Shown piece by piece: positions 2,410 to 23,678 of a DNA stretch of 28,185 nucleotides; within the stretch, counting starts at the first letter, position 1, and every line of letters starts with the position of its first letter. A model generated the notes under the pieces. That model did no database searches. It was given only the letters and a program-made list of their open reading frames with translations, and was not told the DNA's origin. Source of the DNA: a virus; the IMG/VR virus record IMGVR_UViG_3300028388_001718, positions 1-28,185 of that record, one strand, 5' to 3'. Position numbers and translations under genes: made by a program.

Positions 2410-3808
2410 TTTAGTTGAGATAGAAAAAGAACTCTGTAGCCGCTCTTTAGCGGCTTTTGTGCGTAGAGCGTGGCATGTATTAGAACCCGGCCAGCCTTAC
2501 ATTCATGGATGGCACGTTGATGCCGTATGCGAACACCTAGAAGCCATAACCCATGGCGATATATCCCGATTACTTGTAAACATCCCACCGGGTACAATGA
2601 AATCAACACTGGTTTCCGTATTCTGGCCTGCTTGGGAATGGGGGCCATGTAATAAACCGTCTACTAGGGTTATAGGCGCATCTCATGAGCAGGGCTTAGC
2701 CGTTCGTGATACCCGTAAAATGCGAAACCTTATTATCTCTGACTGGTATCAAAGTCGATGGCCTACCGCATTAACTAGCGACCAGAATCAAAAAACCTTC
2801 TATGAAAACGATCAAACAGGCTTTAGGCAGGCTTGCGCCGTTGCTGGGATGACAGGTCGGCGAGGTGATAGGGTTATATGGGATGACCCTCACAGCGTCG
2901 AGGCGGCATTGTCTGACGCACACAGGGAAACCGCGCTTAGGGTATTCCAAGAGACGCTACCAACACGATTAAACAATCCTGATACATCCGCAATCGTAAT
3001 TGTTATGCAACGATTGCATGAGATGGACGTATCAGGGCTGATATTAGAAAATGATTATGGATATGAGCATCTTTGCTTGCCTATGGAGTACGAGCCGGAG
3101 CGACACTGTAAAACCAGTATAGGGTTTAGCGACCCGCGCACCAAAGAAGGCGAGCTATTGTTTCCTGAACGCTTTAGCCGCGAAACAGTCGATAGAGATA
3201 AAAAAGTAATGGGTTCTTTTGCCGTTGCTGGGCAATTGCAACAGCGACCAGCACCACGGGGCGGCGGTTTTTTTGCCTGGCAGTCTATTAGCGTCATTCA
3301 ACGGGCACCAAAGATCATTAGAAAGGTGCGCTATTGGGATAAGGCGGGCACTGATGGCGGTGGAGCCTATACCGCTGGCGTTCTAATGGGTGTATCTGAT
3401 GAGAATGAGTATATTGTATTGGACGTTGTTCGCGGCCAATGGGGGGCGCCACAGCGAGAGAAGACGATCAGACAGACCGCTGAGCTAGATGGCCCTGAAG
3501 TTGAAGTGTGGATAGAGCAAGAGCCGGGTTCGGGTGGTAAAGAATCAGCGCAAAACACAATCAAGAACTTATCAGGGTTTAATATACGGGCAGAACGCGC
3601 CACTGGTGACAAGGCGGTAAGGGCGGAGCCGTATAGTGTGCAAGTTGAAGCGGGCAATGTTAAAATCCTTAGAGCAGACTGGAATAAAGACTTTATCGAC
3701 GAGCACAAGACTTTCCCCGTCGGTAAATACAAAGACCAAATAGACGGCTCAAGCGGGGCGTTTAATAAATTAGCACTAGGCAATGAATTTATATTCGAGG
3801 CGTTATAA
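2378..3808 (+). CDS. terL: terminase large subunit (ATPase and nuclease)
   Basis: This is the motor and endonuclease that cuts and packages DNA at the portal. The N-terminal ATPase has a Walker A-like PPGTMKST at residues 70-77 and Walker B VIWDD at 166-170, followed by a QRLHEMD segment (211-217) in the coupling region. The C-terminal RNase H-like nuclease shows YWDKAG with Asp321, an acidic pair in WIEQEPGSGGK (380, 382) and KDQIDGSSGAF with Asp453 and Asp456. At 476 residues with both domains it is complete. It starts inside the small terminase gene and its stop shares a base with the portal start (TAATG). Confidence 0.95.
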   Translation: MSAIPTITQADLVEIEKELCSRSLAAFVRRAWHVLEPGQPYIHGWHVDAVCEHLEAITHGDISRLLVNIPPGTMKSTLVSVFWPAWEWGPCNKPSTRVIGASHEQGLAVRDTRKMRNLIISDWYQSRWPTALTSDQNQKTFYENDQTGFRQACAVAGMTGRRGDRVIWDDPHSVEAALSDAHRETALRVFQETLPTRLNNPDTSAIVIVMQRLHEMDVSGLILENDYGYEHLCLPMEYEPERHCKTSIGFSDPRTKEGELLFPERFSRETVDRDKKVMGSFAVAGQLQQRPAPRGGGFFAWQSISVIQRAPKIIRKVRYWDKAGTDGGGAYTAGVLMGVSDENEYIVLDVVRGQWGAPQREKTIRQTAELDGPEVEVWIEQEPGSGGKESAQNTIKNLSGFNIRAERATGDKAVRAEPYSVQVEAGNVKILRADWNKDFIDEHKTFPVGKYKDQIDGSSGAFNKLALGNEFIFEAL

Positions 3809-21457: not shown

Positions 21458-22111
21458 TTATTGGTCGATTAGCTCATGAATAAATTTACGTCCCTTCTCA
21501 GACCACTTCATAGCATGGCGCGATACGCCGCCATCATCTATATGCGTAGTCTCGACATCGTAGCCTTTACCGATATTAGCCGCGGTAAGCACCCATCGGC
21601 GACCTATCTTGCGCTGAACCTTCATGGCTTCCAGTAGCTTATTGAGCTTATTAGCTGTCATGCCTAGCTCGCTGGCTATTTCCGTAGTCGTGATTCCATT
21701 CTCAGTTGCAAGTACTTTGTCGTGATACTCAAGTTTGGGCTTGGCTTCTTCTAGCTGTTTGGCTTGATCAGCGGCTAACTGAAGGGCTTCGGCGTAGGTT
21801 TGCGGAATTGCTGGTGGCTGATTCTGCTTACTTTTTAATAGCTCTCGTATCTTTTTACGAACCGATTTTGATTCGCGCATGCCAACTTGCAAGGCTTGGT
21901 CTTGGTCGAGCTGAGAAACAGTGGTTTCAGTATTGTTTGAATTTCGAACTACAAAAGTTTTGTAGTGCTCGCCTTCCAGCTCATCCGCTATTCGATCATT
22001 GAAAACATTTGAACGTAGGCTTTTTTCGCCCGCTTCTTCACGTAGTTTATTAATAACATTCAGAAAGTCGCGACTATCAATTAGCCCATTTACTATGGTT
22101 AGGTTGTTCAT
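21458..22111 (-). CDS. phage antirepressor with KilAC domain, 217 aa
   Basis: Antirepressors inactivate the lysogeny repressor and so promote lytic growth. I chose the ATG at 22111, with TTGGAG nine bases upstream; the frame runs to 22264 upstream but crosses the promoter and terminator of the leader. Residues 1-95 form a variable N-terminal domain (NNLTIVNGLIDSRDFLNVIN, then QDQALQVGMRES). Residues about 107-215 are a KilAC domain: QTYAEALQLAADQAKQLEEA, then KLEYHDKVLATENGITTTEI, ASELGMTANKLNKLLEAMKV, and a C-terminal WSEKGRKFIHELI. Expression is probably controlled by the attenuator in its leader and by the C4-like RNA. Confidence 0.85.
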   Translation of the reverse strand: MNNLTIVNGLIDSRDFLNVINKLREEAGEKSLRSNVFNDRIADELEGEHYKTFVVRNSNNTETTVSQLDQDQALQVGMRESKSVRKKIRELLKSKQNQPPAIPQTYAEALQLAADQAKQLEEAKPKLEYHDKVLATENGITTTEIASELGMTANKLNKLLEAMKVQRKIGRRWVLTAANIGKGYDVETTHIDDGGVSRHAMKWSEKGRKFIHELIDQ

Positions 22112-22125
22112 TGGTTGGCTCCAAT

Positions 22126-22192
22126 AAAAAAGGCAGTGCACTAAATCAGGTGAGAAATTGGCCAAAGCAAGCCTCTGATTTAATACACTGCC
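22126..22192 (-). terminator. attenuator hairpin in the antirepressor leader
   Basis: On the minus strand GGCAGTGTATTAAATCAG (22192-22175) pairs with CTGATTTAGTGCACTGCC (22149-22132): 18 positions with two mismatched, around a 25-base loop. Six T (22131-22126) follow at once, then the ribosome site and ATG of the antirepressor. It has the form of a rho-independent terminator inside a leader. GTGAGAAA at 22222-22215 is fully complementary to TTTCTCAC in the loop (22157-22150), so another fold is possible. The loop also has the complement of a C4-like RNA segment (22177-22168). Confidence 0.78.
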
Positions 22193-22234
22193 CGTTTTAT
22201 GCTTTATGTTCGGCTTTCTCACGGCCTTGGGTTG

Positions 22235-22263
22235 ATTATAGCAATTACTCTGTATTTTCGCCA
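22235..22263 (-). promoter_or_regulatory. promoter of the antirepressor leader
   Basis: On the minus strand TATAAT (22240-22235) is preceded by TGC, giving a perfect extended -10. A poor -35 (TGGCGA, 22263-22258) is 17 bases away. Transcription would start near 22228 and give a leader of about 117 bases that contains the attenuator. It lies just after the 82-aa gene. Confidence 0.6.
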
Positions 22264-22818: not shown

Positions 22819-22845
22819 TAAGGTGAGCTAATGAGAGGAGTTAAC

Positions 22846-23034
22846 ATGTTTAAAGGCATTAAACCAATTTCAAAATGCGGTATTTGCGCGTTTACACATA
22901 CCGATAGAAACTACGACGAGCTAGGTCACACGCTTTATGTGACGTCATTCAACCCTGATGGTAGTGTGAGTTGTTTTGCAAATGTAGTGGCAGGAAGCGA
23001 CAGAGACGAAACTCAACTATTCGGAGAACTATGA
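22846..23034 (+). CDS. hypothetical protein, 62 aa
   Basis: I chose the ATG at 22846 because AGAGGAG stands seven bases before it; an ATG at 22831 with AAGGTGAG is a possible alternative and would add five residues. The protein has three Cys (SKCGICAF and VSCFANV) and a likely beta-rich fold (LYVTSFNPDGSVSCFANVVA). It is the first gene of a two-gene cassette between the two halves of the immunity region. Function not recognised. Confidence 0.55.
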   Translation: MFKGIKPISKCGICAFTHTDRNYDELGHTLYVTSFNPDGSVSCFANVVAGSDRDETQLFGEL

Positions 23035-23381
23035 TGAGCAACCTACAAAAACACCAAGGCAAAATCTTCGACGGCTCTAATATGCCAGAGTTTTATAGAT
23101 ATATTGCGGATTATTTGGATGAGTATGGCGCACCAGTAGATTATGGTCTTGAATTTAATCTTGACGATAACAATTGGAAGATATCTGAGGCAGGGTTGCT
23201 ATCGATACTTAAAAATTTGTCTAACGATGGTTGTTATAAATACCGCCCCACCCCACTAACCAAGACCATGTACAACATCCATACGGGTGAAGCGGTTGAG
23301 GTGCCGGTTGATATACAAGTTACTGTTTCAGTGGCTGGCTCATATTACACAGAGTCACTACTAAAGCTAACCAGTAAATAA
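23034..23381 (+). CDS. hypothetical protein, 115 aa
   Basis: A GGAG seven bases before the ATG at 23034 supports this start; the overlapping ATG at 23031 is possible too. The first 60 residues are helical and acidic with many aromatics (MPEFYRYIADYLDEYGAPVD); the second half is likely beta strands (VEVPVDIQVTVSVAGSYYTE). No known motif. It overlaps the stop of the first cassette gene and is followed by a strong terminator, which closes this short transcription unit. Confidence 0.6.
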   Translation: MSNLQKHQGKIFDGSNMPEFYRYIADYLDEYGAPVDYGLEFNLDDNNWKISEAGLLSILKNLSNDGCYKYRPTPLTKTMYNIHTGEAVEVPVDIQVTVSVAGSYYTESLLKLTSK

Positions 23382-23386
23382 TCACA

Positions 23387-23412
23387 GGTCGCTATATGCG
23401 GCCTTTTTTTTT
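23387..23412 (+). terminator. rho-independent terminator after the two-gene cassette
   Basis: GGTCGC and GCGGCC pair (one G-T pair) around a TATAT loop and are followed by nine T. On the other strand the same nine bases are Lys codons of the small Icd-position ORF, so the two elements share DNA. Confidence 0.8.
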
Positions 23413-23493
23413 GGTTGGCGGGTTATCCATCGTCACCGCCGAGCGCCGCCCGATGGTGGCAGTAATTACCCGCATCAATTTGAGCTTGATCAT
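23392..23493 (-). CDS. tiny ORF in the icd position, 33 aa
   Basis: Directly after the C4-like RNA on the same strand is a short open frame with ATG at 23493 and a second in-frame ATG at 23475. It encodes a basic peptide with RVITATIGRRSAV followed by TMDNPPTKKKGR. From memory, similar short peptides with a conserved MDxPPTKKKGR-like end occur in the ash/icd-like immunity segments of enterobacterial prophages. In P1, icd (a cell division inhibitor) lies between c4 and ant. There is no strong ribosome site, and much of the frame overlaps a GC-rich hairpin region (23418-23473), so conservation may come from RNA rather than peptide. Confidence 0.4.
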   Translation of the reverse strand: MIKLKLMRVITATIGRRSAVTMDNPPTKKKGRI

Positions 23494-23496
23494 TTT

Positions 23497-23596
23497 CGTG
23501 GCGCCACGGATATGACCAGAGGCTTGGCGGGGCTAGGTCGTTCGGGGACTCCCAAACCTTAACCAACAGCTACTTACGGCGCGCTGTGAAGCCAAG
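23497..23596 (-). ncRNA. c4: C4-like antisense RNA
   Basis: The segment is GC-rich, has no supported gene and folds well. On the minus strand the 5' end CTTGGC (23596-23591) pairs with GCCAAG (23528-23523), enclosing a hairpin in which GTTTGGG and CCCGAAC (one mismatch) close an AGTC loop. It ends near a CGTGGCGCCACG palindrome (23508-23497). The order promoter, CUUGGCUUCAC start, GGGAGUCCCC loop, and GCCAAGCC matches my memory of the C4 antisense RNA class of phages P1 and P7, about 80 bases long, which represses antirepressor synthesis. Two adjacent segments, CCTAGCCCC (23537-23529) and CAAGCCTCTG (23526-23517), have perfect complements in nearby leaders. I could not run a covariance search. 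Confidence 0.62.
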
Positions 23597-23599
23597 GGC

Positions 23600-23608
23600 A
23601 TTATATCA
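23600..23608 (-). promoter_or_regulatory. extended -10 promoter of the C4-like RNA
   Basis: On the minus strand TGATATAAT combines a perfect -10 hexamer (TATAAT, 23605-23600) with TG one base upstream. No good -35 is seen. The start would be near 23593-23594, at the first stem of the RNA. The stop codon of the preceding 25-aa ORF lies within the hexamer. Confidence 0.6.
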
Positions 23609-23678
23609 CATTAGGCTTTGATTTTTTCCTGTCTTGTATGCTTGCGGTGGCTTCTGCGTCTATGTTGAATAAGATCAT
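23601..23678 (-). CDS. possible 25-aa peptide upstream of the C4-like RNA
   Basis: An ATG overlapping the stop of the 76-aa gene (TAATG) has AGGAG nine bases upstream. The 25-residue product has an acidic first half (LFNIDAEATASIQ) and a basic end (DRKKSKPNVI). The stop-start overlap and ribosome site suggest coupled translation. The stop lies within the promoter of the C4-like RNA. No family can be given for so short a peptide. Confidence 0.4.
   Translation of the reverse strand: MILFNIDAEATASIQDRKKSKPNVI

Follow-up and report, generated by a model that had tools for sequence, protein, structure and literature searches.

The window (the whole stretch of DNA that was analysed, 28,185 nucleotides of the IMG/VR virus record IMGVR_UViG_3300028388_001718) carries on its minus strand an antirepressor gene, the leader of this gene, and a small RNA. 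The features of the locus are as follows.

23600–23605, minus strand: −10 element TATAAT (extended) of the small RNA; the promoter region is nearly identical in L122
23468–23531, minus strand: core of the small RNA, abiF-type (RF03085, 31.2 bits) and C4-like in the original prediction
23517–23526, minus strand: CAAGCCUCUG, which includes the 5′ conserved abiF arm CCCGCCAAGCCUCU; CAAGCCUCU is common to 24 other phage contigs with the motif
23478–23488, minus strand: CAAGCUCAAAU, the 3′ conserved abiF arm; in L122, this is the arm that matches the leader
22235–22240, minus strand: −10 element TATAAT of the leader (extended, TGCTATAAT), from the sequence
22212–22226, minus strand: 5′ hairpin GGC-CGUGAGAAA-GCC, displaying U1 in its loop (covarying stem)
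22215–22222, minus strand: U1, GUGAGAAA, pairing with D1 (7–8 perfect pairs in 5 of 6 leaders)
22200–22205, minus strand: U2, AAAGCA, pairing with D2 (6 pairs kept in 6 of 6 leaders)
22175–22192, minus strand: O5, the 5′ arm of the terminator stem, pairing with 22149–22132 (covariation, 6 leaders)
22168–22177, minus strand: the reported 10-mer CAGAGGCUUG, comprising the top of O5, the inner hairpin and the first two bases of D2
22164–22169, minus strand: D2, UGCUUU, the loop of the inner hairpin (cis pairing, covariation)
22150–22157, minus strand: D1, UUUCUCAC, the unpaired part of the terminator loop (cis pairing, folding)
22132–22149, minus strand: O3, the 3′ arm of the terminator stem (pairing with O5, covariation)
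22126–22131, minus strand: T6 run of the terminator, from the sequence
22122–22119, minus strand: Shine-Dalgarno sequence GGAG, right after T6, from the sequence
21458–22111, minus strand: antirepressor gene (217 aa; KilAC domain, PF03374; phrog_63)

The Shine-Dalgarno region and the start codon (22103–22125, minus strand) can be folded as a small hairpin, AUUGG-AGCCAA-CCAAU, and, if this predicted fold is formed, an extra translational control of the antirepressor is possible.

In the original prediction, the small RNA was a C4-like RNA that pairs with the loop of an attenuator in the antirepressor leader. Several parts of this claim were borne out. One is the 10-base complement itself (CAGAGGCUUG at 22177–22168 against CAAGCCUCUG at 23526–23517, both on the minus strand), which is extended by two more pairs to 12 bp when G-U is allowed (AUCAGAGGCUUG/CAAGCCUCUGGU). 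Another is the estimate that such a match is expected by chance about once in a hundred cases, which is fair for a pair chosen post hoc, after the whole window had been read: when the leader was dinucleotide-shuffled, 10 perfect pairs with the 76-nt RNA core arose in 0.7% of cases, and with 201 nt of the RNA in 2.7%. The last is the position of the match on the edge of the terminator loop: T6 follows a strong hairpin, whose outer stem is closed by CAG, and GGCU belongs to the weak inner hairpin.

The label given to the RNA, however, had to be replaced. C4 identity was rejected because no Rfam C4 match was found in the window at E ≤ 1, nor in the region 23380–23620 at E ≤ 10, while in the positive control the C4 of phage P1 scored 68.8 bits, with the a1b1 leader beside it. 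The RNA carries instead an abiF-type core, the one credible Rfam match, with E values of 0.053 (the whole window against all Rfam) and 1.2e-5 (the abiF family alone against the window record). Since its 31.2 bits lie below the cut-off of RF03085 (the Rfam gathering threshold, 37 bits), the RNA is termed abiF-type and not regarded as a certain member. It aligns to the full-length model with all the conserved bases of both arms and no non-standard pairs, and the conserved core (CCCGCCAAGCCUCU ... GCUCAAAU ... GCGGGU) is present. The abiF RNAs, for example RCd22 of C. difficile, are RNA antitoxins of the AbiF/Abi_2 toxins and bind AbiF directly (PMC12373285). The window RNA is similar to them in the alignment over the whole model and in having its own promoter region, and differs from them in the sub-threshold score, in the longer apical hairpin, and in that no Abi_2 gene (PF07751) was found in the window record.

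Many further copies of the complete motif turned up when viral contigs were scanned, and several of them have TATAAT just upstream. An Abi_2 gene was found in only 1 of the 31 viral records with the motif (the window included; many of these records are fragments). The motifs lacking a detectable Abi_2 gene (30 of the 31 records) include those of the window (23468–23531, minus strand), L002, L017, L020, L024, L026, L032, L033, L036, L064, L069, L090, L110, L121 and L232–L245. Such phage RNAs may be mimics of the AbiF antitoxin, in other words, RNA decoys against AbiF defence. An abiF RNA was also noted in a lytic cyanophage that has protein antitoxin genes as well (PMC9964418).

The closest relative of the window, L122, has a homologous leader, the near-identical promoter region of the RNA, and both abiF arms. 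In its abiF-type RNA (3580–3700; 12.3 bits), about 40 nt are inserted between the 3′ arm and the closing stem. A near-invariant hairpin-like segment (UGCCACCAUCGGGCGGCGCUC..GGCGGUGACGAUGG) adjoins the 3′ side of the RNA core in both (window 23415–23465, minus strand; L122 3690–3740, plus strand), and a search of viral contigs for this hairpin and for a 56-aa ORF recovered the L122 contig alone. A tRNA gene (CCA anticodon by eye) is located just 3′ of the abiF-type RNA in L122 (3789–3860, plus strand) and is absent from the same place in the window.

The leader, in turn, was found to be an element common to six phages, collected by a covariance model, a pattern scan and blastn. Besides the window and L122, it occurs before an antirepressor gene in Oceanospirillum phage GJ44 (found by a covariance model built on three leaders), before a PAPS-reductase-like gene in L256 (found by the pattern scan), and before HNH genes in Marinomonas phage P12026 and Idiomarinaceae phage 1N2-2 (the latter found by blastn). 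Because genes of these other kinds are also preceded by it, the leader is not tied to antirepressors. It is not tied to the small RNA in its occurrence, either: four of the six leaders lie in phage records with no detectable abiF RNA. Three of these records (P12026, GJ44 and 1N2-2) are complete, and the fourth, that of L256 (40.5 kb), may be incomplete.

Blastn of the leader or of the RNA region against phages gave no relatives beyond those named, no relatives were found among plasmids, and none were found when the antirepressor was aligned against genome contigs. Six stretches in genome contigs that fit the leader pattern were rejected, as the leader model gave no support for their membership. 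Within the window, no further copies of the leader were found apart from weak echoes on the reverse strand. The leader matched no Rfam family; matches of P12026 to rimP and AaHKsRNA82 were below the cut-off and located elsewhere. In the part of the literature covered by our search, no description of the leader was found, and it is apparently an undescribed switch-like RNA.

Two observations concern the genes next to the leaders. The antirepressors of the window (21458–22111, minus strand) and L122 (5761–6402, plus strand) are almost identical in the C-terminal half (KilAC), while their N-terminal domains differ, that of L122 being of the Rha type; judged from the sequences, this is a clean domain swap adjoining the leader. 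In 1N2-2, the HNH gene is inverted amid structural genes, and the promoter, the leader and this gene (L261 2963–3606, plus strand) form one inverted unit between them, placed as a mobile module would be.

The six leaders have in common an A-rich stretch, a hairpin with an 18–19 bp stem, an inner hairpin and U6, which is directly followed by a Shine-Dalgarno sequence in most of them. A recognisable −10 element and the 5′ hairpin are present in five of the six; elements similar to the −10 element of the window leader are seen upstream of the leaders in P12026, GJ44, L256 and 1N2-2, and the promoter in 1N2-2 reads TTGGCA-17-TATAAT. In the alignment of the six leaders, double changes occur at 11 of the 26 consensus pairs of the terminator hairpin, and the stem of the 5′ hairpin covaries from GGC/GCC to CGG/CCG among the five leaders that carry it. 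Thus, a terminator hairpin with a U run, conserved with covarying stems, precedes the gene in all six leaders, as in an attenuator.

A second set of conserved pairs is found within the leader: U1 is complementary to D1, and U2 to D2, both D segments lie in the terminator loop, and the two pairings are nested. The nested cis pairs number 14 in the window, 15 in GJ44, 14 in L256, 15 in 1N2-2 and 12 in P12026, where the count includes a helix other than U2:D2. With the U segments placed by hand in these six leaders only, after the sequences had been viewed, the numbers of shuffles (of 2000 each) that equalled these counts were 5, 3, 1, 0 and 44, respectively. When each of these five leaders was compared with all the other loops, its own loop was the best fit. 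U1:D1 is kept in all five with compensatory changes, several positions being altered on both sides: GUGAGAA:UUCUCAC is replaced by GUGAUAA:UUAUCAC in P12026 and by UUCAGACC:GGUCUGAA in GJ44. U2:D2 is kept in all six leaders, with 2–4 pair types at every position and two wobbles in P12026. The exception is L122, which lacks U1 and the 5′ hairpin and whose cis pairing is not above chance. Concerning the antirepressor leader, then, the claim of a terminator-type attenuator with a loop that is a pairing target stands, while the abiF-type RNA is not supported as the partner: the segments with which the loop pairs in a conserved and covarying manner lie in the 5′ part of the leader itself.

Folding was predicted both for the transcript that ends before O3 and for the full leader. 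The U:D pairs are part of the best fold of the unfinished transcript in four of the six leaders (window, GJ44, L256 and 1N2-2), and the terminator is the fold of the full leader in all six. In these predictions, the U:D pairs prevail as long as the terminator arm is not yet made, and the terminator prevails from then on, which is an attenuator-like behaviour. The conserved pairing is thus a putative alternative to the terminator, although the two could also coexist in a pseudoknot.

What the comparison shows is the terminator, complementarity in cis, compensatory changes and the distribution of the element. On this basis, we consider it probable that the leader is a self-contained, cis-acting transcription attenuator and a general switch for accessory phage genes, from which the abiF-type RNA is separate, the 10-nt match being coincidental. 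During the synthesis of the leader, U1 and U2 would pair first with D1 and D2, and O5 would be held in the intervening loop. When O3 emerges, the 18–19 bp terminator would win and transcription would stop, unless some factor held the U:D state and thereby prevented termination. Only read-through transcripts would reach the antirepressor gene, and read-through would set its expression. The abiF-type RNA would be a separate element, plausibly a mimic of the AbiF antitoxin. Since the same element stands before HNH and PAPS-reductase-like genes, it is more naturally seen as a general switch for accessory genes than as belonging to a single immunity circuit. No ligand, protein or signal for the leader was found in this analysis. 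The model offers a directly testable account of the silencing and activation of such genes. With its compact build and its two sets of covarying cis pairs, the putative attenuator in front of antirepressor, HNH or PAPS-reductase-like genes is a candidate for a new class of structured RNAs.

The same pairs can be read differently, as tertiary contacts of one compact pseudoknotted terminator, in which U1:D1 and U2:D2 stabilise the fold or make a site for a protein or ligand. U1 is exposed by the loop of the 5′ hairpin, whose stem covaries, and D1 is single-stranded in the terminator fold. This is a loop-loop geometry, in which U1:D1 could form with the terminator standing, and the antiterminator is a candidate. 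However, the order of U1, U2, D2 and D1 is a nested one, and an extended hairpin is predicted for the unfinished transcript in four of the six leaders; we regard the pseudoknot as possible but rather unlikely.

A doubtful reading is that the leader, once terminated, serves as a small RNA of its own, which acts in trans through U1/D1 on newly made leaders of the same phage and so provides self-specific immunity or autoregulation. The CI RNA of phage P4 is a precedent for such a role of a phage RNA. The leader has its own promoter and a short terminated product, its U/D pairs are specific to each phage, and IsrK of Gifsy-1 acts in trans on its own operon (PMC4825925). Nevertheless, the element also precedes HNH and PAPS-reductase-like genes, for which no immunity role is known.

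Control in trans by the abiF-type RNA, the form closest to the original prediction, appears improbable. The RNA would bind the loop of the unfinished leader at or beside D2, block U2:D2 and favour the terminator, and would thus repress or tune the antirepressor in the manner of the P1 C4 without being C4. Independent variation of the two segments among relatives, which was to count against such pairing, was found by half: in L122, the RNA arm is unchanged and the leader segment is changed, so that the register with the 5′ arm is lost, yet UGAGCUUGAA of the leader matches the 3′ arm of the RNA over 10 nt (1.7–2.2% by shuffling). This is a fair independent trial at a chance level of about 2% and keeps the idea alive; it is the reason why a small probability is retained for some form of trans control. 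The two phages that have both the RNA and the leader thus each show a perfect 10-mer, at a chance of about 1–2% in each case, and both matched sites touch D2, while the leaders of P12026, GJ44, L256 and 1N2-2 show matches of no more than 6 nt to the two RNAs and do not share the reported 10-mer, which is the only hint against coincidence. However, the arms used by the two RNAs are different, hence no pairing is conserved, and the segment of the window RNA belongs to the invariant core of the abiF motif, which is identical across many bacteria and phages and is not tunable to a target. For a segment dictated by the motif, an equal match to the abiF RNAs of unrelated phages is expected, and the window leader in fact matches these over 9.8 nt on average and 11 nt at maximum, as well as it matches its own RNA. 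Among the 24 abiF contigs, targets of the 5′ arm were not in excess (1 seen, 1.7 expected); 10-mer targets of the 3′ arm numbered 3 against 0.4 expected, which are numbers too small to use.

The predicted energetics depend on the state of the leader. With the unfolding of both partners paid, binding to the finished leader comes to a net −0.75 kcal/mol in the window and −4.85 kcal/mol in L122. For the leader truncated ahead of the 3′ arm of the terminator, the corresponding values are −5.2 and −5.9 kcal/mol; these speak for trans control, and the −0.75 kcal/mol of the window speaks against it. With the 10-mer blocked, 16 bp of the terminator stem remain. Raw duplex energy was also tried as a measure of trans pairing and was rejected, as it was no better than shuffles (21–47% of which were equal or better). 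On balance, the 10-nt match is probably a coincidence between the leader and a sequence set by the abiF motif, and the case illustrates that a 10-base match to an invariant family motif says little about a target. A combination in which the abiF-type RNA has two jobs, as a mimic of the AbiF antitoxin and as a partner that pairs beside D2 via either invariant CAAGC(C)UC arm, with the level of free abiF RNA, and hence that of the AbiF toxin in the host, controlling the attenuator and whether lysogeny or induction follows, is very unlikely.

The locus was also compared with known systems. The C4 RNA of phages P1 and P7 (RF01695) and the c4-a1b1 leader (RF03163) resemble the present locus in that a small phage RNA near an antirepressor gene has been proposed to limit the expression of the antirepressor by RNA pairing. 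In P1, however, C4 and ant are on one transcript, with the a2/b2 targets between C4 and icd, whereas in the window the RNA and the leader are 1.3 kb apart, ORFs on the opposite strand (22831–23381) lie between them, and the leader has a separate promoter-like element. Furthermore, the matched site is inside the terminator loop, and the RNA has a single complementary 10-nt segment (a different one in L122), whereas C4 has two, a′ and b′, directed at two sites ahead of its target gene.

Closer in arrangement is IsrK, the leader and sRNA upstream of anrP in the prophage Gifsy-1 (RF01394; PMC4825925), which shares with our leader the promoter-proximal position, an intrinsic terminator before an antirepressor gene, a read-through mRNA, and alternative structures. 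The two differ in architecture and in that our leader is also found before other genes; no isrK covariance match was obtained in the leader region (22080–22260, E ≤ 10). IsrK acts mainly on the translation of orf45-anrP (PMC4825925). The ant leader of P1 likewise puts a terminator in front of an antirepressor gene. Like the classical attenuators, the leader has two putative alternative folds ahead of a U run, which in its case are backed by compensatory changes. It differs from them in having no leader peptide or known ligand, in standing before unrelated accessory genes in phages, and in that the alternative hairpin would not pair with the 5′ arm of the terminator but enclose it in its loop. 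In phage P1 (L247 918–1012, plus strand), the isrK model also matches the c4-a1b1 stretch below its threshold (35.1 bits, with 50 required) and as far as a U run, which suggests that the antirepressor leaders of P1 and Gifsy are related.
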